From Desulfobacula sp. (GTDB lineage: Bacteria; Desulfobacterota; Desulfobacteria; Desulfobacterales; Desulfobacteraceae): a stretch of DNA of 64,000 bases. Where the stretch lies: the NCBI RefSeq assembly GCF_030145145.1, contig NZ_JAQYWD010000037.1, positions 1 through 64,000 of the forward strand, given 5' to 3'. Position 1 is the first letter of the stretch. Every line of letters starts with the position of its first letter. Below, in pieces: positions 2,193-63,874 of this stretch. The notes below the pieces were generated by a model, which was not told where the DNA came from, did not search any database, and saw only the letters and a program-made list of their open reading frames with translations. The position numbers and the translations under genes are program-made.

Positions 2193-2828
2193 TTAATCAT
2201 TTCCTATTTTATACCCGGCTTCTTCCCACGCCTTTCTCATTACTTCATTTTTCTTTAAATATTCATCAACCACTTCTTTTGAGACCCGATTAAAAATACA
2301 AGAAAAATTAACGCATTTTGAACAGGTATTTCTTCCTAATATTACAAAAAACACAATCGTTCCAAGTGCGGTAAGTCCTGCCCATAAGTATTGCTCCCCA
2401 ATTATGGAAAAGTATATGGGATAACCAAAAAGAATGCTAAAGCCTATTACAAGTTGAAACTTCTCCCACCTGTTTATAGGTGCCGGATTATATTTCCAGA
2501 ATTTAGGACACCCGGCATTCGCATGGCATTCCAGTAAAAAGCCCTCTTTGGCATAGTAGGGACAATGACTGCATAAAATTTTAATCTCCCAGAAACCAAA
2601 AAAAAATATCCAGAAAACAAACATCCATGCAATCTGGTTAGAGTAACCTCCACGATTCATCCCTATTAATCCGGGTACCAAAAATACGGAAAACAATAGA
2701 ATAAATTTTAACCAATCAAAAACACTAAATCTACATTTTAATTTACCTGAGATAGTACACCCTGTACAGTTCGACTCTTGGCCGGCAGTACAAATACCAT
2801 TGGGATTATCATGACCAACCGGATTCAT
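2193..2828 (-). CDS. Cysteine-rich polytopic membrane protein, unknown
   Basis: 211 residues; the ATG at 2828 has AGGAG seven bases upstream. Four hydrophobic helices are visible (around residues 40-56, 66-80, 128-142 and 148-162). Cysteine clusters occur before the first helix (C..C.GC..S..LKC), after the second (CSHCPYY...LECHANAGCPKFW) and near the C-terminus (CSKCVNFSC). The CxxC pattern suggests metal or Fe-S binding at the membrane surface. No family was recognised. It stands alone, between the STAND NTPase and the FtsZ-like gene. Confidence 0.7.
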   Translation of the reverse strand: MNPVGHDNPNGICTAGQESNCTGCTISGKLKCRFSVFDWLKFILLFSVFLVPGLIGMNRGGYSNQIAWMFVFWIFFFGFWEIKILCSHCPYYAKEGFLLECHANAGCPKFWKYNPAPINRWEKFQLVIGFSILFGYPIYFSIIGEQYLWAGLTALGTIVFFVILGRNTCSKCVNFSCIFNRVSKEVVDEYLKKNEVMRKAWEEAGYKIGND

Positions 2829-2963
2829 TATCGGTCTCCTTCAATCATGCTACGACTAAAAAGTTTGATCTGTAAATCAGTATCAGTGTTTCAAATTTGT
2901 GTAAAGAAACATTCAATTATATGGAAGGATAATAAGCAAATTAATCAAGATGCCATTAAGGTA

Positions 2964-3015: not shown

Positions 3016-3990
3016 CTATGTTGGGTGCAAAGTTTTTAAATTGTCGGTTTCCCTTTTGGCCAGACTCATATCATCAATTAAATTATTATCGTTCATAGAT
3101 ATGAAAAGGGTGGCTCGAAAGTCTGCATCAAGTTTTAAACACTCCGTCAATCCCCATACGATATCTGCATCAGAGTGGCAACAGTTATGGACTTCCCCGG
3201 AAATGTTGGAAAGATCACGCAGCGTAAAATCAATATTGTCATTATATATGATATTAAGCAGGAGGCCGCTCGAATTTTTTATATGGGCTTTGTAAGTATC
3301 TATGGTTTGTTTAAAGGCGTTGAAACTGTCCTTATAAGAACTTACCGTATGAACCATAACTCCGCTTTTTCCTGAAACATTACTTTTTACATCTGCAAAA
3401 TCAAGGCCGACGCGGCTGGGGATCATAAGCATGGAAAAAAGGCTGTGGATCGTTAAAATCGCTTGGTGTTCATAATGTTTCTCATGAATAAAGACACAGG
3501 CTTCTTGTTCGTTCACCGGAAAATTCTGCGCAGCCAGAAGGGGGTTCTCGTCTTCAATGGCTATTGTGAATGACAGGAAAAGATCGTGACAATTGATGAG
3601 TTCTCTTGCGATCCAAAAGTCCCTATCTTTCATAGACCCTATGAGAAAGACGATTTGACCTTCAGAAATGAATCCATCTATCTGATTGTTATTGGGGCTG
3701 AAGTGCTGAATTATAGCAGGCTTGCCAGCCAGAACGTCAATCGGTTTCGGTCCAGATTGTAATACCTTAGCAATCTTAAATCCTTTATTTCCAACAGTAA
3801 TGAAGAGAATTTTTATAATATTTTCTGGAAGTGTAAAACCATTTGGTTCAGATAACGGTGATTGCCGTTTGCCCTGGATATTTAACTGGGATGGAAAAAA
3901 GGATAGAGCATCATGAGTGTTTCCTGTTGCAGCTAATATGGTACACAAACCGATGCTCTTTATAAATTTTCGTCTTGATACATTGGACAT
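3016..3990 (-). CDS. FtsZ/tubulin-like protein with Tat signal and degenerate GTP-binding loops
   Basis: 324 residues from the ATG at 3990 (AGGA six bases upstream); an upstream ATG at 4014 is less likely. Residues 5-11 read SRRKFIK, a canonical twin-arginine motif, followed by a short hydrophobic stretch. From residue 60 the order of FtsZ elements can be followed: beta1, IVFLIGS in place of MVFITAG, GLDFADVK at 195-202 (FtsZ NLDFADV), then an FtsZ-C-like domain with LLLNI, FTLRDLSN, DADIVWG and ATLFIS. The tubulin signature GGGTGTG is replaced by SMKDRD and the first glycine loop by VGNKGFK, so GTP binding is probably lost. It follows the DnaB-like gene by 128 bp. The homology is inferred by eye from ordered motifs; export by Tat is inferred. 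Confidence 0.65.
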   Translation of the reverse strand: MSNVSRRKFIKSIGLCTILAATGNTHDALSFFPSQLNIQGKRQSPLSEPNGFTLPENIIKILFITVGNKGFKIAKVLQSGPKPIDVLAGKPAIIQHFSPNNNQIDGFISEGQIVFLIGSMKDRDFWIARELINCHDLFLSFTIAIEDENPLLAAQNFPVNEQEACVFIHEKHYEHQAILTIHSLFSMLMIPSRVGLDFADVKSNVSGKSGVMVHTVSSYKDSFNAFKQTIDTYKAHIKNSSGLLLNIIYNDNIDFTLRDLSNISGEVHNCCHSDADIVWGLTECLKLDADFRATLFISMNDNNLIDDMSLAKRETDNLKTLHPT

Positions 3991-4022
3991 GATAGATCCT
4001 TTTCGAATATTCATTCCTTAAC

Positions 4023-4118: not shown

Positions 4119-5003
4119 TTATTGCTCAAATTTAGCATATTGACGCAAAAAGCTCAGACACGCGGTTCCAATATTGCCATAACGATTTTTAGCGACAATT
4201 ACCTTAACAATTTCTTTTTCATGACAACTTGTCATTTGATTCGTAACATCATCCCGATGAATAAATGCCATGATATCTGCATGCTGAAACAACCCACAGG
4301 TTTCAGTGGAAGTCTTCAACATTGAAGTCCAATCGCAGCAGATATCATCAATAAGACCACTCATCTGAGATACGACGATTACAGGAATATTCAGTTCCCT
4401 GGCAAGAGTCTTAAAAAAAATTGCCATCCGTGTTATTTGCCGTTCGACTGAACAATCATCCGTTGTAATAAGCAACTGGATATAATCAATAATCAGTAAC
4501 CCAATCCCCAATGATTTTTTCAGATATTTCGCTTTCCTGTGAATCCCTTTTAATGAAAAATCTAATTTATCTTCGATAAAAAGGGGTTTGCCTTCTAATC
4601 GAGTGGCAGCATCAGTGAGTTTTCGCCACTCTTTAGGTCTAGGTCGTGTATGAATCAATTGATTCAGATCTATATTGGCTTCTGAAAGCAATAGACGCAT
4701 TGCTAACTGTTCCGCTGTCATTTTAAAAGAAAAAAAAGCAACTGGAGTGTGCTCTTCAATGGCCACATTTCGGGCAATACCAAGTGCCAAAGAAGATTTC
4801 CCCATTTGTGAACCTGAAGCAAGCACGATGAGATTTGAATCTTCTAACCCCAAGAATATGCGATCAAGTTCTGAGAACCCTGTGGAAAGCCCTAAAAGTT
4901 CATCTGGATTATTGTGGATTTGCTCAATTTTATCCACATTCATTTCAATGTATTCATCTATTCCAAAAAAATGGTTATGGTTTTTAATTTTTCGGTTTGT
5001 CAT
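4119..5003 (-). CDS. Stand-alone DnaB-C (RecA-fold) ATPase-like protein
   Basis: 294 residues from the ATG at 5003; a TTG 24 bases upstream is an alternative. The whole protein matches the C-terminal core of replicative helicase DnaB: LSTGFSELDRI, Walker A GSQMGKSS (64-71), Walker B LLIIDYIQLL (169-178), LARELNIPVIVVSQ, and a final AKNRYGNIGT. The N-terminal DnaG-binding domain is absent. The catalytic glutamate of the DnaB motif (SLEM..EQL) is lysine here (SFKMTAEQL), so hydrolysis may be impaired. A palindrome shared with the WYL regulator lies 57-71 bases upstream. It probably forms a unit with the FtsZ-like gene that follows. Role unknown. Confidence 0.75.
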   Translation of the reverse strand: MTNRKIKNHNHFFGIDEYIEMNVDKIEQIHNNPDELLGLSTGFSELDRIFLGLEDSNLIVLASGSQMGKSSLALGIARNVAIEEHTPVAFFSFKMTAEQLAMRLLLSEANIDLNQLIHTRPRPKEWRKLTDAATRLEGKPLFIEDKLDFSLKGIHRKAKYLKKSLGIGLLIIDYIQLLITTDDCSVERQITRMAIFFKTLARELNIPVIVVSQMSGLIDDICCDWTSMLKTSTETCGLFQHADIMAFIHRDDVTNQMTSCHEKEIVKVIVAKNRYGNIGTACLSFLRQYAKFEQ

Positions 5004-5059
5004 TTTAATCAATACTCCATGTTCCAAATCTCATTTTATTTGACATTACCATGACAATA

Positions 5060-5074
5060 TTCCATTTTATGGAA
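5060..5074. promoter_or_regulatory. Palindromic operator, copy 1 (TTCCAT-N3-ATGGAA)
   Basis: TTCCATTTTATGGAA is a perfect inverted repeat with a 3-base spacer, flanked as A-site-CGA. The same arrangement, including the CGA flank, occurs at 5826-5840 in front of the WYL regulator. It lies upstream of the minus-strand DnaB-like gene, where binding would repress transcription. Confidence 0.75.
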
Positions 5075-5194: not shown

Positions 5195-5776
5195 CTACAT
5201 GGGAACGTCATCGTCATCATCATTAATATCATTATCAAAATCTTCTTCTTCAATTTCATCCAGGGTGTCCCGGGCGGCCTGGGATACATTAATGTCTGGA
5301 TCTTTAATTAATTTTTTGAGAATGAAGCCAGGTGTCTCATCGGTGCTTCCCAATCCAAACCTTATGGTGGGATCTGCTTGTTGATAAAGTTTTTCACATA
5401 ACCAGTCCCTCTCACAGAGTTCATATACTTCCGTTAAATCAGAGATATTATCCACGATTTCAGTTAAAATCTCAGAATCACCAGTGTTTATAAATCGTTC
5501 GATATCATCTTTGCCCATTTGTGATAGAAATTTATCCTGGTTAATCATAGATCGCATAACCTCTATTTGAGAATCAGGTAAAAGAAGTCTAACAGTTTTT
5601 GCATGAAGATAATTTTTAGATACAATATTTGACCTTGTCTCGGCTGAAGGCGATTGAGCCAATTCGTGGTAGATATTTTTGGTCCTTTTACAATCATCCA
5701 AAGCATAGGCTATTTCGTTTAATTCTCTATGCCCGAGCTCTAATCTGACGTTGTTAATAATAAGTTCTGCGGTCAT
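5195..5776 (-). CDS. HEAT-like repeat protein with acidic tail, paralogue 1
   Basis: 193 residues; AGGAGG stands eight bases before the ATG at 5776. The sequence consists of short helical pairs with the patterns AQSPSAETRSNIVSK and LLLPDSQIEVM, resembling HEAT or LRV solenoids that act as binding scaffolds. The last 20 residues are almost all Asp and Glu. It is a clear paralogue of the gene at 12112-12651: shared features are the start INNV...G..EL, the ELA.S.S.E.R motif, a PDS/QDS turn and a PLIRF/PTIRF motif near the end. It is divergent from the WYL regulator, with the operator between them. Exact function unknown. Confidence 0.75.
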   Translation of the reverse strand: MTAELIINNVRLELGHRELNEIAYALDDCKRTKNIYHELAQSPSAETRSNIVSKNYLHAKTVRLLLPDSQIEVMRSMINQDKFLSQMGKDDIERFINTGDSEILTEIVDNISDLTEVYELCERDWLCEKLYQQADPTIRFGLGSTDETPGFILKKLIKDPDINVSQAARDTLDEIEEEDFDNDINDDDDDVPM

Positions 5777-5825: not shown

Positions 5826-5840
5826 TTCCATGGGATGGAA
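5826..5840. promoter_or_regulatory. Palindromic operator, copy 2 (TTCCAT-N3-ATGGAA)
   Basis: TTCCATGGGATGGAA, a perfect inverted repeat with the same half-sites, spacing and CGA flank as the site at 5060-5074. It lies between the divergent HEAT-like gene and the WYL regulator, next to the -35 of the former and just after a possible TTGTTT-N18-TATCAT promoter of the latter. Confidence 0.75.
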
Positions 5841-5871: not shown

Positions 5872-6879
5872 ATGACTAAAAAAATCAAGCCTGATAAAGA
5901 CCATGGACAAAAGGTTATAGAGTTATTTTTCAAATTATTCTTCTCCCCATATGAATATTCACTGACTGAGCTTTCAAGGGAATTGGAGTGTTCAAAACAA
6001 ACAATAGGCCGCATTGTCGATAAAATAAACAGTTCCACTGAAGGTATCAAAATTGAAGATTTCATTAAGGATAGAAGACGGTTCTTCAGGATCAAGAAAG
6101 AGAAAATTCCTGCTAAAGAAATAAATTTGACTCAGTCAGAATATGGTGTTTTGCAGATGTGCTGTTCTTTTACAAAACACCTGATTGGAAAAGAAATATT
6201 TGACCAGGCTTTGAATGCTCTTGGTAAAAGCCAGGCCTTGATAAAGAATAGGGAGACCGTGTCGGAAAAACATTTTGGTGCCTTTACCCCTGGGACAATA
6301 GATTATTCAGGTCACCAACGAATAATAAAGAACCTGATAACTGCCATGGAAAGCAGCAAGGTTTGTAAAATCACCTATAAATCCATCTGGAATCAAGAAC
6401 CCAAAATATTCTATATCAAACCATTAAAGCTCTTTTCCAAAGACGATACCATTTATTTACATGCTCAAATGGCCAAAGCTCCCGGCAAAGTTTATAAGGC
6501 ACCTAAGTTTGACCCTCTGCTGGTAATCCACCGGATTGTGGAACTTGAAATCACCGAGATATCTTTTAAATTTCCTGATAATTTTGATTTTGAAAAGTCG
6601 TTTAATCAAACTTTTGGTGTTATGAAAGAAGATTCTTTTCAGGCAAAAGTTGAGTTTTCCGGATACGCTGCCAAGCATGTGAAAGAACGGATCTGGAGTC
6701 ATGACCAAATTATAAAAGAAAAGAAAGACGATAAGATTGAATTAACATTTACTGCGACATCTTACATTGAAACGGTTTCCTGGATACTTTCATATGGCCA
6801 TGAGGCCCGAATTCTTGAACCAGACTGGTTCGTGGAGGATATGCAGGCAGAAATCAAAAAAATGCATGAATTATATTGA
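5872..6879 (+). CDS. WYL-domain transcriptional regulator
   Basis: 335 residues from the ATG at 5872; earlier in-frame starts would place the operator inside the gene. An N-terminal winged HTH (about residues 10-65, with LTELSRELECSKQTIGRIVDKI) is followed by a WYL domain (core YIKPLKLFSKDDTIYLHA) and a C-terminal WCX-like extension ending in the ILEPDWFVEDM region. WYL proteins such as CapW and BrxR repress defence operons until a ligand relieves them. The palindromes at 5060 and 5826 are the natural candidates for its operators, which would make it control itself, the HEAT-like gene and the DnaB-like/FtsZ-like pair. The family call is secure, the regulon is inferred. Confidence 0.85.
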   Translation: MTKKIKPDKDHGQKVIELFFKLFFSPYEYSLTELSRELECSKQTIGRIVDKINSSTEGIKIEDFIKDRRRFFRIKKEKIPAKEINLTQSEYGVLQMCCSFTKHLIGKEIFDQALNALGKSQALIKNRETVSEKHFGAFTPGTIDYSGHQRIIKNLITAMESSKVCKITYKSIWNQEPKIFYIKPLKLFSKDDTIYLHAQMAKAPGKVYKAPKFDPLLVIHRIVELEITEISFKFPDNFDFEKSFNQTFGVMKEDSFQAKVEFSGYAAKHVKERIWSHDQIIKEKKDDKIELTFTATSYIETVSWILSYGHEARILEPDWFVEDMQAEIKKMHELY

Positions 6880-6960: not shown

Positions 6961-7542
6961 TTAATTTACAAAGCCCTCTTTTTGGAAATACTTTTTATAA
7001 CGTGGCAAAATATCATCTGTAAAATTTATACAAGTCTTCTGGATATTAGCCTTAAAATCTTCAGAATTTTTCAGTTTACCAATGTTAATAATATGTCTTA
7101 AAGAATAATTGAGGACTGTGATCTCATCTTTATATTCTTCCTCCTTTTTAAAGATTCCCATACATTTTTGAAAATCAGCCATTTTTTCTTTTCTATTTTT
7201 GCCTTTCGGTTCTAAATAAAGATTAAAGGCGGGATATACATCCACGGATTTATCAGTTAGATCTTCCCAATCTATAAAATCATATTGAAAATAAAGCCCA
7301 ACATCTTTATCAATATCATATGATCTATCATCGTACCAATAAACACAGTCGCCATCAGTTTCGATTACCAAATTATGATCTTTTTGAAAAGGATGCTGTA
7401 ATTCTAAAATACTTTTTGTTACCAGGTTGTTCACGATTTCTGGTATTTTGATTTGTGCTCTTTTATAGATTTCGTTTAATGCTTCGATATCATCAATGTT
7501 ATCAATGATAAAATTCAAGTGTTTATCGGTTGTAAAAATCAT
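6961..7542 (-). CDS. Hypothetical protein, partner of the PD-(D/E)XK gene
   Basis: 193 residues, with AGGAAG seven bases before the ATG at 7542 and only 18 bases after the upstream nuclease gene, so the two form an operon. The protein is soluble and rich in Lys, Asp, Tyr and aromatic residues, with an acidic middle (WYDDRSYDIDKDVG). No domain was recognised. Operon position suggests it works with, or neutralises, the nuclease. Confidence 0.65.
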   Translation of the reverse strand: MIFTTDKHLNFIIDNIDDIEALNEIYKRAQIKIPEIVNNLVTKSILELQHPFQKDHNLVIETDGDCVYWYDDRSYDIDKDVGLYFQYDFIDWEDLTDKSVDVYPAFNLYLEPKGKNRKEKMADFQKCMGIFKKEEEYKDEITVLNYSLRHIINIGKLKNSEDFKANIQKTCINFTDDILPRYKKYFQKEGFVN

Positions 7543-7560
7543 AATTCATCTTCCTATAAA

Positions 7561-8310
7561 TTAAAACCAATTATAATAATTCAAGAAACATTCAATATTA
7601 GTTATCGTATCTGAATTAGTTGCTCTATGCTCAGAATTGACTATTGCCTTCTTAATGGCCATTACCACTTTTGAAACAGACATGGGGATAAAATTATTTT
7701 CAAGAGGATATTTATCCTCCTCAGGAGAAAGAAAAATTCCAAGTAGATATTGTTCTTTTATTCCTTTCATTTTGCCCATTTTTAAAAGTTTTTTCCATTG
7801 CCGTTCTGTTTGTGGGGCAGTTGAATACGTTTCACTACCACCCCTGATTTTGTTTTCAATGAAAATAATGAATTTGTCAGAAATAATAGCAATGTCTGGG
7901 ATAGTATCCCCCAAATGATACTCTCTAATAATCTGAACCTCGGCTGAATCAAGAGTTGATATAATAGCAGATACATTTTTATGTCTGTTTTCAATCGTTG
8001 ATAGAACATTTCTTAAGGGCTCTATTCCTAATTTGTGAGCGGATTTAGGATTTAATAGAGAGGCTAAGGCATCACTTAATTGGTTTTCTGTTGGAGTAAG
8101 ACCTGCAATACGAAACAAATCATAGTGATGAAGTTTTTTTTCATTGAAAATTTTAAGTACTTTTTTAGCACTGTGAACTTTTTCATCAAGATGCTGTCGA
8201 TAAATTTCAATAAAATCTTTTAATGATTTCTCAGCACGATATAGTATTGAATTTTGTAAATCCCTAAAATCTATAAGAAGCCGTTCTATCTGAACAAGAT
8301 CAAATTCCAT
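7561..8310 (-). CDS. PD-(D/E)XK superfamily nuclease-like protein
   Basis: 249 residues; GAGG precedes the ATG at 8310. An N-terminal helical half (1-65) is followed by the order expected of the nuclease fold: Glu75 in TPTENQLSDALASLLNP, Asp139 in IPDIAI, and Glu152-x-Lys154 in FIENKI. This resembles the PDDEXK_4 type often found in restriction and abortive-infection loci. It heads a two-gene operon divergent from an XRE regulator; paired repeats in the shared spacer suggest direct control. The nuclease fold is well supported, the target unknown. Confidence 0.7.
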   Translation of the reverse strand: MEFDLVQIERLLIDFRDLQNSILYRAEKSLKDFIEIYRQHLDEKVHSAKKVLKIFNEKKLHHYDLFRIAGLTPTENQLSDALASLLNPKSAHKLGIEPLRNVLSTIENRHKNVSAIISTLDSAEVQIIREYHLGDTIPDIAIISDKFIIFIENKIRGGSETYSTAPQTERQWKKLLKMGKMKGIKEQYLLGIFLSPEEDKYPLENNFIPMSVSKVVMAIKKAIVNSEHRATNSDTITNIECFLNYYNWF

Positions 8311-12111: not shown

Positions 12112-12651
12112 TTAAAAATCACAGTCTAAATCGATTAATGCCTGTTGTGCCTCCAAGACAACTGATTTGTCTGGGTCAGTGGCAAGAATTTTTAAATAGC
12201 AGAGTGGAATATCACATCCTGCACCAGCAAGTTCAAAGCGAATTAATGGGTCTTGGTGCTGGACTAGCAGATCCGCTAAATACTGTATATCGCAACAATC
12301 AAATTCGTTTACGATGTCGTCGAGCTCCATTATCATCGTCTTTAATAGTCTGACCGATCCAAGTTCAATCAACCTGGTTAATTCGGATTTGTTGAGACAT
12401 GTTTTCCCGATATCGGTTTTTAGAATTTGACAAAGAACCATAATTGAAGAATCTTGAATAAGAAGTTCCGCTGTCTCAGCCATTAGGTGTACTTTACAAG
12501 CCACAGCGGTACGAACCTCTGATGATTTCGACAGCGCAAGCTCATGAAAGATCAGAGCATTCTCTTGGCAGTCTGGAAGTATGTCCGCGATTACCTCCAG
12601 TTCTTTAAATCCTATCGAAGCTGAAACGTTATTTATTTTTAGTTTGGTCAT
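12112..12651 (-). CDS. HEAT-like repeat protein, paralogue 2
   Basis: 179 residues; GAGGAG lies eight bases before the ATG at 12651. The ATG overlaps the stop of the preceding peptidase gene (TAATG), implying translational coupling. It parallels the gene at 5195-5776 throughout (KINNV start, LALSKSSEVRTAV, LLIQDSSIMVL, DPLIRFELA), but lacks that gene's long acidic tail. Solenoid proteins usually bind partners. Coupling points to the C39-like peptidase as partner or substrate carrier. Confidence 0.75.
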   Translation of the reverse strand: MTKLKINNVSASIGFKELEVIADILPDCQENALIFHELALSKSSEVRTAVACKVHLMAETAELLIQDSSIMVLCQILKTDIGKTCLNKSELTRLIELGSVRLLKTMIMELDDIVNEFDCCDIQYLADLLVQHQDPLIRFELAGAGCDIPLCYLKILATDPDKSVVLEAQQALIDLDCDF

Positions 12652-13223
12652 TATGTTTTCTCCTCATAAGTTTTAGAAATGATAAATGTGTCTGTTGTAG
12701 ACAGTCTATATGGCCTTTTTCTTGAATATTCTTTATTCCACAAATCGCATCTTTGCAGTTGTATCCTTGAGTTCCCTCTGTCAGAGTCAAATGTTACCAA
12801 ACTCTTTTCGGTGATTTTTTTAATGATAGTCCAATGGCTGTAATATCCGTTATCATCTTCAAGTCCGTGCTCATATCCGAGAATTATGGCTGAATCCTGG
12901 GAGTTTAGAGCATTCCTTATCTTATTTAAAAACTCGTCTATACTGGTAGCCTTCTTTGACCACCAGGGCCGGTAAACGGTTAATGGTAGGCCCAATTCAA
13001 TGATTACATTACACAATATTTTATTTACCCTGTCCCTGTATATTCCATACAAAACACCTTCTGCGTCTCCGTATGTTTCGATGTAATAATCCCATATTGA
13101 TTCAAAAACTTTATTTTTATTTATGTTTGGAAATAGTAATGACATGACATTCCCAATCGCATAAAAGCCACATTGGCTGCTAAAATCCCCTTGTAGTGCT
13201 GGTTTTACCGGGTTTTTAGCCAT
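12651..13223 (-). CDS. C39-like (papain-fold) cysteine peptidase
   Basis: 190 residues from the ATG at 13223; a GTG at 13271 with GGGG just upstream is an alternative start. The catalytic order of C39-like peptidases is visible: Cys18 in SSQCGFYAIGN, His130 in YYSHWTIIKK, and Asp146 or Asp148 in VTFDSD. No signal peptide is evident, so it should act in the cytoplasm. The stop codon overlaps the start of HEAT paralogue 2. With the GHKL ATPase upstream (gap about 140 bp) it may form a peptidase-based effector set; that role is inferred. Confidence 0.65.
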   Translation of the reverse strand: MAKNPVKPALQGDFSSQCGFYAIGNVMSLLFPNINKNKVFESIWDYYIETYGDAEGVLYGIYRDRVNKILCNVIIELGLPLTVYRPWWSKKATSIDEFLNKIRNALNSQDSAIILGYEHGLEDDNGYYSHWTIIKKITEKSLVTFDSDRGNSRIQLQRCDLWNKEYSRKRPYRLSTTDTFIISKTYEEKT

Positions 13224-13366
13224 TGATATTGATTCTTGTTTGAAATGTGGTTTGTATGGCGGGAAATACACTTTTCCCCGTCGTTACAGCATTTTTTGAT
13301 ATCATTGTATGCATGATGGTAAAATGATGATGAACATGACTTATATAATCAAACATCTATGGTCTT

Positions 13367-14929
13367 CTATTTAATGCAGTTACCATTGAGATCCGTTTTG
13401 ACAGCTTTTGATTTAAGCTTTACTAAATCGTTGACACGGGCGCGGTTTGCCAAAGCTTTGGTTAGCAGAGTAGTGTATTTATTTTTGAAAGACTCATTGT
13501 GATATTCATAGCCGAGCATATGAGTTAGTTCTTCAGCAGCAGAAAATATCATATCAAAAACTGATTCCTCCCATGATGCTTCATAATAAGGGAAAGGATT
13601 GAAAGATATATAACCGTGCCTGTATTCAGCCCGTCTGGATAGATCCTCACTCATCAACAATCCATACCCATATCTTTTATTGATGTCAGCACATTCCGCG
13701 ACTTCGTCTAACACCTCCTTCCATAACCAGGCCAGTTTTATCGTGGTTTGATCATAAAGAAGATAAGTCAAGTCACTGTTAATTTTCATATCAGTGACTA
13801 CGATGAATCCAGAGTTAAAATGATTTCGATACCATGTAAGGCATTCATCAAATTTTTTGGTGTTGTAGATGCTTTTAGCCGACTTCATGGCAGAACGAAT
13901 CTGATTTTCATTTTCTTTGTCAATTATTGATTCTTGAACTAAAAATTTTCCATCAAGCATTTCGGTAATATCATCAACAGTAAGTTCGGTAATGTCCTTA
14001 TCTATCTGCTCAGCAAACAATTTGACAGTTTCAAGACTTTCTTCATTTAATTCATTGGTAAAAGCGGTGGCATAGCTTGAAATGTTTTCTAACTTTTTAA
14101 CCTGAATAATGCTTTCTTTCCTGAGACAGGTGCTTTCAGAATCGATAGCTACTTTTCCAACCATTTTCGTGAATTTATCCTGCCACTCTCCAATGAAAGA
14201 ATCTCGGTTGGATGTCAGGCAGTCATAGGATGACATTGAAATATTAAAGACATAGCATTTATCCAGAACAGAATGTAAAGAGAACATGAACAACCCGTGT
14301 GCCTGAACAATTATCATGTTTTTAGATTCATATTGTTGATCATCTATCAGATAAAGTGACCCAAGATCATCTATGACAAAAGCCTTTTTCCCGTGTTTAA
14401 GCCAATCAGATTCAACCTTTTCCCCATTATATTTTACAACTATTCCCCTGCTTTGAAAATTACACATACCGATGTAGTGTTTAATTTTGGTTTCAATATT
14501 TCTAACTTTATCTTTAATGAATATTCTGCTTATGGTTCCATGGATGGGATCACATTTTTGTATTTCATAGTTTGCCCCATTGCCAATAATCATGGAATTT
14601 TGAGAACGGATTCCCCATTGAGGCCATGCAAAATAAAGAATCTCTTTTGCTTTACCGATACCGCCAATGGAACACTTTTTCTTGTATGAACCACCCAATG
14701 TTAATAATGCGGTTTCAATGGTGGTTAATGACATACCAACGCCGTCATCTGTTATTTTCAGCCATTCACCATCAAAATTTAATTCAATATTTTTAGCGTC
14801 AGCATCAACACTGTTTTGGATAAATTCTCTTATGAGAGCTGATTCCCAGTTATAATAGTCCTTCAAGGCCATTCTAAAGAAATAATCAGAAGGGATTGAT
14901 ACCTGTTTTTTCACTATAATGTCTCCCAT
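13367..14929 (-). CDS. GHKL (Hsp90-like) ATPase with zincin-like C-terminus
   Basis: 520 residues from the ATG at 14929, which overlaps the end of the upstream gene by 16 bases. The ATP-binding fold is clear: N-box LIREFIQNSVDA (33-44), G1 DDGVGM (61-66), G2 region LGG...SIGGIGKAKE (78-95). The middle is unrecognised. Near the C-terminus, AAEELTHMLGYEYHNESF (464-481) imitates a zincin HExxH...H...F pattern, but with Glu in place of the first His. Hsp90-like ATPases paired with nucleases or peptidases occur in several antiphage systems; this one precedes a C39-like peptidase. Confidence 0.75.
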   Translation of the reverse strand: MGDIIVKKQVSIPSDYFFRMALKDYYNWESALIREFIQNSVDADAKNIELNFDGEWLKITDDGVGMSLTTIETALLTLGGSYKKKCSIGGIGKAKEILYFAWPQWGIRSQNSMIIGNGANYEIQKCDPIHGTISRIFIKDKVRNIETKIKHYIGMCNFQSRGIVVKYNGEKVESDWLKHGKKAFVIDDLGSLYLIDDQQYESKNMIIVQAHGLFMFSLHSVLDKCYVFNISMSSYDCLTSNRDSFIGEWQDKFTKMVGKVAIDSESTCLRKESIIQVKKLENISSYATAFTNELNEESLETVKLFAEQIDKDITELTVDDITEMLDGKFLVQESIIDKENENQIRSAMKSAKSIYNTKKFDECLTWYRNHFNSGFIVVTDMKINSDLTYLLYDQTTIKLAWLWKEVLDEVAECADINKRYGYGLLMSEDLSRRAEYRHGYISFNPFPYYEASWEESVFDMIFSAAEELTHMLGYEYHNESFKNKYTTLLTKALANRARVNDLVKLKSKAVKTDLNGNCIK

Positions 14930-15171
14930 GGTTTTTTTGTTAATGTTGAAATTATTGATTTGGAGCTGTGTAAACTTCTTCTCGGTGAAAACGTACAATG
15001 CATGCAAAAGGACTTATCTTTACAAGCTTCACAAATTTTGTTTTTATCTAAGGTTGTTACAAGGTGATTGAATATATCATTCATGGTTTTGGTCATTGGC
15101 ATTTTACATGCCCAGGCTATTCGTCTTAGAACAGCACTTTGAGTCTGATTGAGTTCTGGTGTATAAGCCAT
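14914..15171 (-). CDS. Small cysteine-containing hypothetical protein
   Basis: 85 residues from the ATG at 15171, five bases after the stop of the DUF2958 gene and with no ribosome site of its own, so probably translated by reinitiation. The C-terminal half carries CEAC...FCMHC, a possible zinc site. The end overlaps the start of the GHKL ATPase gene. Looks like an anti-repressor- or DNA-binding-size protein, but no family was recognised. Confidence 0.55.
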   Translation of the reverse strand: MAYTPELNQTQSAVLRRIAWACKMPMTKTMNDIFNHLVTTLDKNKICEACKDKSFCMHCTFSPRRSLHSSKSIISTLTKKPWETL

Positions 15172-18075: not shown

Positions 18076-19791
18076 TTAGCTTGTACTATTTCTTTGAGGC
18101 CTTACTTTCTTTTTTTTTTTGGTTTTGATCTTGATGTAATTTAGTCTCTCTTCAAACTCAGAATCACTGCATATTTGTTTAATCACAATATCTGCTTCTT
18201 TGAAACCGGATTCAATTCTGGCTGTTTCTATGATTTTTGGAGGTATCTTTTTTCCAGTGATAATACCATCATGTTCATTCCTGTAGACGGGGATATTGGA
18301 TTTTGAGCAGAGAACAGTTAAGCGGTGTATGAAAAGGGCTTCCTGGCCTTGTAGCATGAATGCGGCTAATTTTCTCTTGCAGTTTGCATAGTGATCATTG
18401 CTTTTCTTGCCAGTATCATTAACCAAAGAGTTTTCAGGGTCTTCTTTTTTACCTATAGAATAATCCCTAAATATCATCCCACAGGCATTCTTCCATCTCA
18501 AGCAGTCGTTATACATGCTAATGTGTTGTTTGATGGGGTCTGAGAATAAAGTCTCTCTCCATTCTCTAGTGGCTTTCCTGAGGTCTGCTGTGACTGAAAG
18601 AAACCGCTTGTGAATTACATTTGCCCTGATTCTATCAATGCCTAACTGTGACGCTATTGTTTTGTAAATAGCACCTTTTTTGTTTGGTGCTTCAGCCCCC
18701 ATTATTAATGCGTAAAAACATTCTTTCCATAGGTCTACTGTGATACCTGTTTTATCGGCATATATATTTTTAGCATCTTTTCTTTCTAAATATTTCTGCA
18801 ACCAACCGCACTTAATGCGATACTTTTCCATTTCCTGCTTTAGAATGAAGCCCTGAGAGCTCTTTATATCATAATTGTATACCGGTATATTTACAATACT
18901 CACATACTTCATGGCCCTCGAAGCGCTTTGAAACCCCCCTCCTATTTCAAATAATCTTCCGCTTTTCTGAGATCTGTAAGAAGCTTTTACCAAATAAATT
19001 GGATGGCCATTTTTCTTGATTTTGCCTGTTTTAGTTGGGGTGTTAGCTAATATGGTTGTGAGGCTGGACAGATCACTATAATATCTACCCCTATGTGTTT
19101 TGAACTCTTTTAGGTGTTTTTTATAGCATCTGCCTGATTTACATTTTTTAGTTCTTTTTTCAAATAGATCCTTTTCATGATCGTATTTCCTTTTCATCCT
19201 CTTGACCCATTTTTTGGCGTTTTGAAGGTCAATCGGGCCTGGTTGTATGGACTTAATACTTTCTTTTATTATTGATGGAATATTGAAATTTTTGGTGCCA
19301 TGAGATAATTGATAACGGTTTGATTTTGTCTCAACTTTTTTCCCTGTCATGAGATTTACAAAATCAAGGCCTTCTACAGAAGTATTCGGGTCCAATATAC
19401 AATCCATTTTTTTAACAAAGGAATCGAATATGTTATTTGGGATGCGAAATTCCCGGCTTACATGATTCTTGATGCTGTGGGGCAAAATTTCTAATAATTT
19501 ATGTTTTTTTAATATATTCCAGTTAAAATCCCGTCCAAAATTCTTATCAATTAATCTGCTGTAGATAGGCACAAAATAATCTTTTTCAGGGTTTTTAATT
19601 AACTCTTTGCTATTGAGATACATATTCGCCAAAATGTGAGATATGAATTTGTGGTACTTTCTACGCTTCTTCTGATCTTTAGCGCCCTTCGTGAGGGACC
19701 AGACATAATCGTAAACTATTTTTGGGGCCTTGTATATTTTCAGGATGTATCCTTTGCCATGGTAGGGCTTTGTTTTTTCTTCGATCGACAT
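18076..19791 (-). CDS. Divergent family-A-like nucleic-acid polymerase
   Basis: 571 residues from the ATG at 19791 (GGAGG seven bases upstream). Residues 234-238 read RGRYY. Palm motifs can be placed in the order of PolA/T7-type polymerases: motif A with Asp308 in YNYDIKSSQGF; motif B KECFYALIMG, with Lys356 and the Gly nine residues on (spacing of the O-helix K...YG); a Q-helix-like LAAFMLQGQEALFIHRL (PolA AxxMPxQGTAAD); and motif C EHDGIIT with His507-Asp508. Two carboxylates are therefore in place. No exonuclease domain is seen and the N-terminal 230 residues are basic and unrecognised. It may replicate a mobile element. The assignment is by eye only. Confidence 0.5.
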   Translation of the reverse strand: MSIEEKTKPYHGKGYILKIYKAPKIVYDYVWSLTKGAKDQKKRRKYHKFISHILANMYLNSKELIKNPEKDYFVPIYSRLIDKNFGRDFNWNILKKHKLLEILPHSIKNHVSREFRIPNNIFDSFVKKMDCILDPNTSVEGLDFVNLMTGKKVETKSNRYQLSHGTKNFNIPSIIKESIKSIQPGPIDLQNAKKWVKRMKRKYDHEKDLFEKRTKKCKSGRCYKKHLKEFKTHRGRYYSDLSSLTTILANTPTKTGKIKKNGHPIYLVKASYRSQKSGRLFEIGGGFQSASRAMKYVSIVNIPVYNYDIKSSQGFILKQEMEKYRIKCGWLQKYLERKDAKNIYADKTGITVDLWKECFYALIMGAEAPNKKGAIYKTIASQLGIDRIRANVIHKRFLSVTADLRKATREWRETLFSDPIKQHISMYNDCLRWKNACGMIFRDYSIGKKEDPENSLVNDTGKKSNDHYANCKRKLAAFMLQGQEALFIHRLTVLCSKSNIPVYRNEHDGIITGKKIPPKIIETARIESGFKEADIVIKQICSDSEFEERLNYIKIKTKKKKKVRPQRNSTS

Positions 19792-19866
19792 ATTATTTCC
19801 TCCACGAATGATTAATTGTTGATTACATTTTTTCAGCAGAAAGATACCAGTTGATATGTTTAAAGT

Positions 19867-19908
19867 GAAAAGTCCAAATTTTAGATATGTCCAAATTTTG
19901 GACTTTTC
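19867..19908. promoter_or_regulatory. Inverted repeat upstream of the polymerase-like gene
   Basis: GAAAAGTCCAAA (19867-19878) pairs perfectly with TTTGGACTTTTC (19897-19908). GTCCAAATTTT also occurs twice as a direct repeat (19872-19882, 19889-19899). The element lies 75-115 bases before the minus-strand start at 19791 and just past the DUF5131 stop, so it may be an operator, an attenuator or a terminator. Confidence 0.55.
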
Positions 19909-19971
19909 ATTTGTCATGGTATTACTTGGGCTTCATTCATTCAATTTAACAACCGGGATACTTGGACTGAT

Positions 19972-23773: not shown

Positions 23774-24280
23774 CTATTTGTCATTTTTTTTTAGCCAAGC
23801 ATTAACTCTATCCTTATACTCAGGTATTGGCTTGGCTTCCATACGTTCCCATTTACCGATAGAAGCGGGGTCAACTTTAAGTTTATCTGCCAGTTGTGGT
23901 ATGGTTAAAAAACTCTGCATCCTTGCAGCCCGTAACCTATCACCAAAAGTATTCTGTTGTTTAGGATACGACGGGTTGTTCTGAAAAAATAATTTCCACA
24001 GATCTTCTTCCGATATTAAGCCATTAATATGGGGTTTTAAAAATTCCGATAACCTTTTCAAAAAGGGAGTTTTGGGTTGGCTTCTTCCAACTTCCCAGTT
24101 GGTGATGCTACACTCATCGACACCCAGTTCTTTGCCTAGTTGTTTAACCTCCAAATTCAAATCTATCCTGGTTTTTCTGATCAAATCACCCAGAGAATTG
24201 ATCTCAGCGGGATAACTTGGTTTGTAAACATTCCTTGGAATTTCTTTTGTAATCTGGTAGTTAGGGTAGTATGTTATCAT
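23774..24280 (-). CDS. Double XRE-type HTH regulator at the island edge
   Basis: 168 residues from the ATG at 24280; no ribosome site is visible and the upstream sequence is already the comM remnant read backwards. Two Cro/CI-type HTH units are present: LGDLIRKTRIDLNLEVKQLGKEL...ITNWEVGRSQP, and FGDRLRAARMQSFLTIPQLADKL...IGKWERMEAKP. Such tandem HTH proteins are usual in element control regions. Its 5' region may have been cut at the island junction, so its start and promoter are uncertain. Confidence 0.7.
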   Translation of the reverse strand: MITYYPNYQITKEIPRNVYKPSYPAEINSLGDLIRKTRIDLNLEVKQLGKELGVDECSITNWEVGRSQPKTPFLKRLSEFLKPHINGLISEEDLWKLFFQNNPSYPKQQNTFGDRLRAARMQSFLTIPQLADKLKVDPASIGKWERMEAKPIPEYKDRVNAWLKKNDK

Positions 24281-24300
24281 TGATGAAAAGTTGCGATTGT

Positions 24301-24798
24301 GTACCACAGGCTTGTCCCTGCGGATATTTATCCGACCCAGGGGGACGGTGCACCTGCACCCGGCCCCAGGTACAGAAATACAGATCAAAAATATCCGGGC
24401 CGCTCCTGGACAGAATTGATATCCAGATTGAAGTGCCCAGGGTTGAGTATAAAGATCTTGCCGCCGGAACCAGGGGTGAACCCTCTTTGTGTATAAAAAA
24501 AAGGGTCAATAAGGCCCGAAAGATTCAGGAAAAAAGATTGAAAAAAACCGCTTTGTTCAGCAATGCGAGATTGCACAGCCGCCACTTGAAAGTGTTTTGT
24601 CAACTGGATGGTCCATGTGAGAAACTCCTTGAACAAGCCGTTGACGTGCTTGGGTTCTCTGCCCGGGCCTGCCATTCCGTCATACGGGTGGGAAGGACCA
24701 TTGCAGACCTGGAAAATGGTTCCAAAATCCAACGGCACCATCTGGCTGAAGCCATTCAGTTCAGAAGTTTTGACAGGGGCTTTGCACAATCGTGTTAA
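24301..24798 (+). pseudogene. comM: comM (yifB) 3' remnant, Mg-chelatase-like ATPase
   Basis: The frame encodes only the last 165 or so residues of a protein normally about 500 long: ACPCGYLSDPGGRCTCT, the ISGPLLDRIDIQIEVP motif, SARACHSVIRVGRTIADLE and HHLAEAIQFRS. The P-loop half is missing, and similarity to ComM stops at about 24300, where the AT-rich island begins. ComM remodels DNA during natural transformation. The 5' part may lie at the other end of the island, outside this window. comM is a known target for genomic islands in Acinetobacter. Confidence 0.85.
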
Positions 24799-63139: not shown

Positions 63140-63874
63140 TTACCCCATTTCGTCTTCTATAATGGTTTTTGGCATTTCAAAATCATTAAGGGTGGCAATG
63201 TTCTGGAATTGTTTATACAGCTGAAAAATTACGGCCAGATAAAGCGAGTCAAGGTCTCCCTGATCAAGCAGCAGTCTTTCATTGAGAAGTGCTTCCATTT
63301 CATGGACACAATTTTTATTCTTTAATACGGTCTCAAGGAGGCTATTTAATTCGGAAATTTGTTTGCCTTTTTTGATGATTGTTTCCTTATGGGCGGCGGC
63401 ACGCTCTTTAAATTCCATGTTGAGGGTGTACAGTTTTTTAATTTGTTTTTTGGCAAGCGTATACAACCTGTGGTGTTCCATGACCCGTTCATATTGTTCA
63501 AGACCTTCTTTTACGGTTTCTGCCAAGCCCTTGTTATCCCATGGTTTTATGATATATCTATGGATGGCACCCTTGTTCACAGCATCTGTAATCGCATCCA
63601 ACGCTACATAGCCTGTTATAAGGAACCGGATCGTATCCGGTGAGATTTTTTTTGCTTTTTCCAGGAAAATAGAACCAGTCATCTCCGGCATGCGTTGATC
63701 GGAAAGAATTAATGAAAAAGGTTTAACAGCCGTTTCCATTATATCAAGAGCCGCTTGACCGGATTTTACATAAACACTTCTGGCTCCCAGGCTTTTCATC
63801 ATCCGGGTCAGTAATTTTCCAATCGGTTCTTCATCATCAACGATCAGTATCGTATGGTCAAAGTCATCTGGCAT
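63140..63874 (-). CDS. Response regulator with coiled-coil output
   Basis: 244 residues from the ATG at 63874 (AGGA eight bases upstream). Intact receiver (ILIVDDEEP, LILSDQRMPEMTG, FLITGY, IIKPWD), a linker coiled coil (about 135-180) and a C-terminal helical region. Such receivers resemble the first part of RpfG-like regulators but lack HD-GYP. It stops just upstream of the degenerate-receiver/FapA gene; the two may act together. Confidence 0.85.
   Translation of the reverse strand: MPDDFDHTILIVDDEEPIGKLLTRMMKSLGARSVYVKSGQAALDIMETAVKPFSLILSDQRMPEMTGSIFLEKAKKISPDTIRFLITGYVALDAITDAVNKGAIHRYIIKPWDNKGLAETVKEGLEQYERVMEHHRLYTLAKKQIKKLYTLNMEFKERAAAHKETIIKKGKQISELNSLLETVLKNKNCVHEMEALLNERLLLDQGDLDSLYLAVIFQLYKQFQNIATLNDFEMPKTIIEDEMG

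Follow-up and report, generated by a model that had tools for sequence, protein, structure and literature searches.

A family of FtsZ-fold proteins in Desulfobacteraceae and relatives that has lost the GTP-binding motif and conserves a twin-arginine signal

Proteins of the tubulin superfamily are generally viewed as polymers that work in the cytoplasm and are driven by nucleotide. One gene in a 64,000-nt stretch of Desulfobacula sp. DNA (the whole of which we call the window) raises the question of what an FtsZ-like protein could be doing with an export signal at its N-terminus and without the GTP signature of its superfamily, as an earlier note on this DNA had claimed. That note had called for structure prediction with a fold search, and for a profile search. 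The gene, which we refer to as pseudo-FtsZ, has the following parts.

3016..3990, minus strand: pseudo-FtsZ with a Tat-type signal, 324 aa (ORF list, NCBIfam, family alignment, fold model, profile-profile comparison)
3076..3453, minus strand: FtsZ C-terminal region of pseudo-FtsZ, residues 180–305 (TIGR00065, NCBIfam ftsZ, E = 2.7e-8)
3391..3408, minus strand: T7-like loop GLDFAD, residues 195–200 (D197 and D200 invariant in 7 of 7 alignment rows; model block with mean pLDDT 68)
3619..3639, minus strand: position of the FtsZ T4 motif GGGTGTG, now GSMKDRD, residues 118–124 (profile-profile and global alignment)
3781..3795, minus strand: remnant of the FtsZ T1 loop, VGNKG, residues 66–70 (opposite FtsZ GVGGAG in the global alignment)
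3889..3990, minus strand: Tat-type signal, residues 1–34, comprising SRRKFIK (residues 5–11) and a weakly hydrophobic stretch (RR motif; TIGR01409)

The start codon, ATG at 3990, has AAAAGGA upstream, and an alternative in-frame ATG at 4014 would lengthen the protein by eight residues.

The ORF translation contains GLDFADVK (residues 195–202), LLLNI, FTLRDLSN and DADIVWG, all present in the FtsZ order that the earlier note had described, and the profile-profile alignment pairs GLDFADVK with FtsZ NLDFADVK and DADIVWG with FtsZ DAEIIWG. The window protein scored 33.5 bits against TIGR00065, which is below the equivalog cut-off of 295.2 bits, while Pfam returned FtsZ_C at E = 0.039 and the top PDB sequence match was an FtsZ chain at E = 0.001. 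We also compared the family, profile to profile, with 44 canonical FtsZ sequences drawn from the retrieved loci, and obtained E = 9.5e-15; TIGR00065, run on the members, found all seven (E ≤ 10, best 1.5e-8). NCBIfam, TIGR00065 on the members and the profile-profile comparison together placed the protein with FtsZ. In the window's own genome, the sole match to PF00091 was the other FtsZ and not pseudo-FtsZ, whose gene lies away from that genome's ftsZ.

The model of the window protein, built from a seven-row family alignment, had a mean pLDDT of 73.7 and a pTM of 0.73. Between residues 61 and 300, 20 of the 24 ten-residue blocks reached a pLDDT of at least 80, the weaker ones being 81–90 (49), 191–200, which includes the T7 loop (68), 251–260 (78) and 281–290 (71); residues 15–57 had a pLDDT below 50. 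The structure prediction and fold search yielded a tubulin-type (FtsZ) fold, with a best E-value of 4.9e-12 for this model: all 50 matches listed by Foldseek against the PDB were FtsZ, with a probability of 1.00 for the best and 318 matches at E ≤ 0.001. TM-scores were modest at 0.52–0.65, with an rmsd of 5.3–7.7 Å, and one row stood at 0.34–0.36 and 20.9 Å. A second model, of the protein from genome G100 (about 20% identical to the window's), gave a pTM of 0.75 and a best Foldseek E-value of 6.7e-13, again with FtsZ for all 50 PDB matches listed (319 at E ≤ 0.001), and because the same seven sequences lie behind both models, the two are not fully independent. A fold unrelated to tubulin was ruled out by the fold searches with both models. 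Among viral proteins, the fold search reached E ≤ 0.001 seven times, with 2.8e-7 as the lowest value, and three of these matches bear the name tubulin, FtsZ or cell division protein.

Within this fold, the GTP-binding motif has been lost. GSMKDRD stands opposite GGGTGTG in the profile-profile alignment with the 44 FtsZ sequences, in agreement with the earlier note, which had named SMKDRD as the replacement. The same alignment shows 17 residues missing ahead of T7, and in the global alignment the T2–T3 part is about 30 residues shorter than in FtsZ; overall, the C-terminal part is better kept in the alignments than the nucleotide part. Judging from these changes, GTP binding itself has probably been lost as well.

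Tat signals combine an N-terminal motif of the S/T-R-R-x-F-L-K type with a weakly hydrophobic segment. The twin-arginine motif that had been noticed in the window protein, SRRKFIK at residues 5–11, recurs throughout the family: an RR motif fitting [STN]RRxF[IMVL][KSR] was present in 8 of 8 N-termini (six full-length proteins, a truncated copy and a relic), with its start between residues 3 and 5; the 20-residue segment after it had a Kyte-Doolittle mean of 0.40–0.88. Since the motif is common to all eight N-termini, down to 17–20% identity, it is not the accident of one gene. Eight sources, the window and seven loci, gave 222 mechanical ORFs no shorter than 100 aa; a Tat-type motif within residues 1–25 occurred in six of them, every one a family member, and none of the 44 canonical FtsZ sequences had one within the first 60 residues. 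The pattern overlooked one more Tat-like protein, a 174-aa neighbour in locus L037. Against the TIGR01409 Tat model, the window protein scored 12.3 bits (curated cut-off 16.7), and this model matched three of seven members at E ≤ 10 (best 1.3e-4), one of the seven being a fragment without its N-terminus, while PF10518 matched one of the seven (3.8e-4). The window model has a helix at residues 6–23, at low pLDDT, and TatC was found in all six genomes searched. The conserved motif suggests that pseudo-FtsZ may be exported via Tat.

Pseudo-FtsZ is thus a new family in Desulfobacteraceae and relatives, in which the FtsZ fold is accompanied by a lost GTP motif and a conserved twin-arginine signal. 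It comprises the window protein and five full-length relatives at 17–46% identity to it (G368, 46%; G026, 29%; G325, 28%; G100, 20%; G141, 17%), together with one fragment, one truncated copy and one fused relic. The second copy in G026 (188 aa, 26% identical to the window protein) ends at a contig end, the G078 copy is truncated (167 aa), and in the G384 relic a first part from the pseudo-FtsZ family is followed by the C-terminal half of an endonuclease of the non-specific type (positions 113–220 of the 223 in profile PF01223, 1e-17). One-sequence searches covered 58 and 389 genomes and profile searches 86, 395 and 389 genomes, in overlapping sets. In the profile search of the order sample (389 genomes), 12 genomes passed E ≤ 1e-19, five of which (G035, G255, G305, G321 and G339) were left out as ordinary FtsZ matched in the C-terminal part only, and 7 of the 389 hold members, the window's own genome and the truncated G078 copy included. 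Four genomes passed among the 395 (the window's own, G100, G141 and G078). Many matches across the genome searches were C-terminal regions of ordinary FtsZ and were not counted as members. A scan of genome contigs found no pseudo-FtsZ, and the companion LRV scan found four LRV loci. Chance or a single-genome artefact was ruled out by members or remnants in seven further genomes with like N-termini.

Between the window and G368 genes, dN was 0.43, dS was saturated and not computable, and 32 of 44 fourfold sites differed; this dN with saturated silent sites indicates that pseudo-FtsZ is under selection. Plasmid and phage records gave 19 plasmid and 14 phage matches at E ≤ 10, none covering more than 80% of the query, which ruled out a viral or plasmid home visible in the databases. 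Viral contigs searched with pseudo-FtsZ held no confirmed relative, except two stretches related to the G100 protein, and none was found there with the LRV alignment. In addition to pseudo-FtsZ, an FtsZ-type GTPase was matched in every one of the eight genomes searched. A second tubulin GTPase as an obligate partner was rejected, since only G141 has one and the other seven genomes have one PF00091 match each. The second FtsZ-type GTPase domain of G141 (L072 463–1053, minus strand; PF00091, 7.9e-26) has an intact GGGTGSG and lies near the pseudo-FtsZ gene; it ends beside a transposase-like ORF (by eye), with an AAA ATPase gene on the other side.

What surrounds pseudo-FtsZ in the window is a module of a WYL regulator and an LRV/HEAT-like protein, with a recurring palindrome.

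5872..6879, plus strand: WYL/WCX-domain transcription regulator, divergent (PF25583, 4.4e-15; PF13280, 3.3e-5; part from 5896)
5826..5840, no strand: operator-like palindrome TTCCAT-GGG-ATGGAA between the WYL and LRV genes (exact in 6 of 6 WYL-LRV loci)
5195..5776, minus strand: LRV/HEAT-like protein of the WYL module, 193 aa (repeat class by eye; homologues in five other WYL loci)
5060..5074, no strand: second exact palindrome copy, ahead of the DnaB_C gene, itself followed by pseudo-FtsZ (motif scan)
4119..5027, minus strand: co-cargo protein with a DnaB C-terminal domain only (PF03796, 9.3e-62)
2912..2926, no strand: one-mismatch palindrome copy, upstream of the 2193–2828 gene (motif scan)
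2193..2828, minus strand: Cys-rich, membrane-like 211-aa protein (by eye), tied to the module by the nearby palindrome alone

Six other loci encode counterparts of the window's WYL protein at 39–89% identity. The WYL gene is divergent from an LRV/HEAT-like gene in the window, L036, L037, L068, L083 and L085, and TTCCAT-N3-ATGGAA occurs exactly before the WYL gene in all six of these, against an expectation from 20 mononucleotide shuffles of 0.0 exact and 0.1 one-mismatch copies per 64 kb. In L068, a 159-aa gene lies between the WYL and LRV genes, and the palindrome is found between it and the WYL gene. The copy at 2912 is weaker because another one-mismatch copy sits far off at 63293. Pfam gave no match above cut-off for the 193-aa LRV/HEAT-like protein, and neither Pfam nor NCBIfam a meaningful family match for the 2193–2828 protein.

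A related WYL gene is divergent from pseudo-FtsZ, zero to two genes off, in four of the six full-length cases. The cargo after the LRV gene varies: it consists of DnaB_C and pseudo-FtsZ in the window, the same pair in reverse order in G368 (DnaB_C homologue at L036 9036–9902, 39% identity), a Tat-like protein and pseudo-FtsZ in G325, and an LRV-MraZ protein and the relic in G384, and L083 has other genes across the 3.7 kb after its LRV gene; the L085 sequence ends 0.8 kb past the LRV gene and says nothing on cargo. The Tat-like protein of G325 (L037 4461–4985, minus strand; 174 aa, lipobox-like by eye) lies between the LRV gene and pseudo-FtsZ and has no Pfam match. The LRV-MraZ protein, a fusion of an LRV-like and a MraZ-like domain (PF02381, 2.4e-9), is encoded at L068 8392–9426 (minus strand), flanked by the LRV gene and the relic. 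The G100 locus lacks an LRV gene: its WYL gene, 39% identical, and pseudo-FtsZ are immediate divergent neighbours with 7-nt inverted repeats between the two. The DNA around the copies in G026 (14 and 8 kb), G141 (4.3 kb) and G078 (12 kb) contains no WYL gene. Among the five largest repeat families per region, we found no convincing cassette-type repeat between cargo genes but the palindrome.

The setting of pseudo-FtsZ is partly mobile and defence-like. A tyrosine integrase is encoded within the window, the Gabija genes GajA and GajB adjoin the locus in G368, where type I restriction-like genes were recognized by eye, and D5-type and YqaJ-type genes lie at most about 7 kb from the G100 and G026 copies. 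No PADLOC family matched pseudo-FtsZ at E ≤ 0.01.

Further observations concern the surrounding DNA. A block shared with G368 (window 6961–8310 and 12112–15007, 32–73% identity), with genes for a PD-(D/E)XK protein, a 193-aa protein, a second LRV paralogue, a 206-aa protein and a GHKL-type ATPase, may be a further candidate defence module. Window 18076–19917 and L022 3520–5196 (both minus strand) encode related proteins of 558–613 aa at 35% identity, with polymerase-like motifs by eye and no Pfam match of weight, and a gene of this type begins 24 nt after the pseudo-FtsZ gene in G026. The C-terminal part of a comM-type gene is located at window 24271–24798 (plus strand, PF13335), and an N-terminal part (PF13541) at L087 1264–1950 (minus strand) on another contig, C76, of the same genome, beside a serine-recombinase-like ORF (by eye); these two separated pieces, candidate halves of one gene, suggest islands in comM.

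How, then, might the parts fit together? Starting from the family, the fold, the loss of the GTP motif, the conserved Tat motif, the WYL neighbourhood and the palindrome, all observed computationally, our best explanation, which we put forward tentatively and at a little under an even chance, is that pseudo-FtsZ is a Tat-exported, GTP-independent binding or scaffold protein with an FtsZ fold, carried as cargo of a WYL-controlled module. The regulation, partner and effect of the module would be as follows. The WYL protein, acting as a repressor, would keep the module off through TTCCAT-N3-ATGGAA until a stress or invasion signal lifted the repression. Pseudo-FtsZ would then be made and folded in the cytoplasm and moved by the Tat system to the periplasmic face of the inner membrane, where it would serve as a nucleotide-free binding or scaffold protein, with SufI/FtsP as its nearest working analogue.

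In this proposal, the Tat signal argues for the envelope and the T7 aspartates argue for an FtsZ-like partner. D197 and D200 are among only six invariant columns of 341 in the seven-row alignment, and they correspond in the alignment to D210 and D213 of SaFtsZ, which, in the part of the published study available (PMC8936486), position the catalytic water at the GTP of the adjacent subunit. Their retention suggests, short of proof, that pseudo-FtsZ touches the nucleotide face of a partner. Several points weigh against the proposal, however: the invariant aspartates are more easily explained by a meeting with GTP-bound, cytoplasmic FtsZ, the DnaB_C co-cargo is of a cytoplasmic type, the Tat models match few members (three of seven for TIGR01409, one of seven for PF10518), and residues 15–57 are the low-pLDDT segment of the window model. 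Also against it speak the lack of a PADLOC match at E ≤ 0.01, the other genes (3.7 kb) carried by the L083 module, and the absence of a WYL gene from the DNA around the G026, G141 and G078 copies.

In a bolder version, which we hold to be slightly less likely still, pseudo-FtsZ would be the first tubulin-superfamily protein to work beyond the cytoplasm: an FtsZ fold free of GTP, exported by Tat and deployed when needed by the WYL-controlled cargo modules of mobile elements against phages or rival elements at the envelope. If the protein is exported, this would be the first extracytoplasmic use of the tubulin fold, by a conserved family that dropped its nucleotide motif and gained an export signal.

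The same T7 aspartates could instead belong to a poison of host FtsZ, encoded by a mobile element or defence system, that caps the filament from the cytoplasm or while held at the inner membrane and stops division; this is the main rival, though we consider it unlikely. With its T7 face docked on the GTP site of the terminal FtsZ subunit, and with no such site of its own, the protein would leave the filament unable to grow. The rank of D197 and D200 among so few invariant columns would fit such a cap, as would their alignment with catalytic aspartates whose exchange in D210N and D213N suppresses SaFtsZ assembly (PMC8936486, part available), the better conservation of the C-terminal part than of the nucleotide part, and the FtsZ-type GTPase found in each of the eight genomes searched. 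FtsZ is moreover a phage target, and its complex with phage Gp0.4 is sensed by a defence protein as an immune trigger (PMC13423816, part available). However, the Tat motif in all eight N-termini points away from the cytoplasm, the N-terminal charge places the domain outside by the positive-inside rule, and the asparagine of the T7 N-x-D-x-x-D is gone in six of seven pseudo-FtsZ sequences, with G141 alone retaining it, while N208L by itself suppresses SaFtsZ assembly (PMC8936486, part available). If the protein is cytoplasmic, it would be a natural cap showing how a mobile element can halt FtsZ.

The published Gp0.4 trigger also lends something to a reading that we hold to be improbable, in which the module keeps pseudo-FtsZ as a decoy or sensor: resembling FtsZ, it would be bound by a phage inhibitor of FtsZ instead of the host protein or, as a signal, besides it. 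The defence-like neighbours in G368 and the WYL neighbourhood are in keeping with this; yet it leaves the Tat motif unexplained, and there is no toxin-like partner domain, the sole fused copy having no more of a nuclease family than its C-terminal half. Least probable of all is a decaying, functionless gene hitch-hiking on islands. Members are patchily distributed, in 7 of 389 genomes if the window's own and a truncated copy are counted, and truncated and fused copies occur; yet six open frames are full-length, those of the five relatives at 17–46% identity to the window protein, the Tat motif and the invariant residues are conserved, and the closest pair has a dN of 0.43 with saturated silent sites.

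We also compared pseudo-FtsZ with known systems. With FtsZ (TIGR00065), it shares the fold, the element order, the C-terminal domain and the T7 aspartates, but it lacks GGGTGTG, its T1 loop is reduced, its T2–T3 part and pre-T7 segment are shortened, and a Tat motif has been added. TubZ/RepX and PhuZ, the plasmid and phage tubulins that form GTP-driven cytoplasmic filaments, likewise place the tubulin fold on mobile elements, whereas pseudo-FtsZ has no GTP motif and carries a Tat motif. Among the papers listed in searches of the open-licence literature, no title or abstract opening names an exported or Tat-signal FtsZ.

FtsZl1 and FtsZl2 resemble pseudo-FtsZ as divergent FtsZ-superfamily proteins with gene neighbourhoods of their own. 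According to the available part of Makarova and Koonin 2010 (PMC2875224), the GTP loop GGGTG(S/T)G led to their discovery, and their C-terminal regions show no similarity to that of FtsZ; pseudo-FtsZ reverses this pattern, lacking the loop and keeping an FtsZ-like C-terminal region. That part also notes archaeal FtsZ paralogues without known motifs, as well as a Sulfolobus member of FtsZl1 with transmembrane helices at the N-terminus, its GTP motifs kept and its gene transposon-disrupted, and the term "twin-arginine" does not occur in it. With motif-less FtsZ paralogues and an FtsZ-like protein with transmembrane helices, each half of the oddity is thus partly precedented.

For the regulator, the comparison is with BrxR, a WYL regulator that is a repressor and about half of whose homologues adjoin defence systems (PMC9122601, part available). 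Both have a WYL regulator beside defence genes and inverted repeats as binding sites, putative ones here; the window differs in having another WYL protein, its own palindrome and an LRV-like partner. SufI/FtsP has a multicopper-oxidase fold unrelated to FtsZ. In the available part of PMC2661564, it is a Tat substrate in the septal ring, with the fold of an enzyme family but without metal cofactors, and a proposed scaffold; it thus indicates that a Tat substrate with a cofactor-less, enzyme-like fold can be a septal scaffold.
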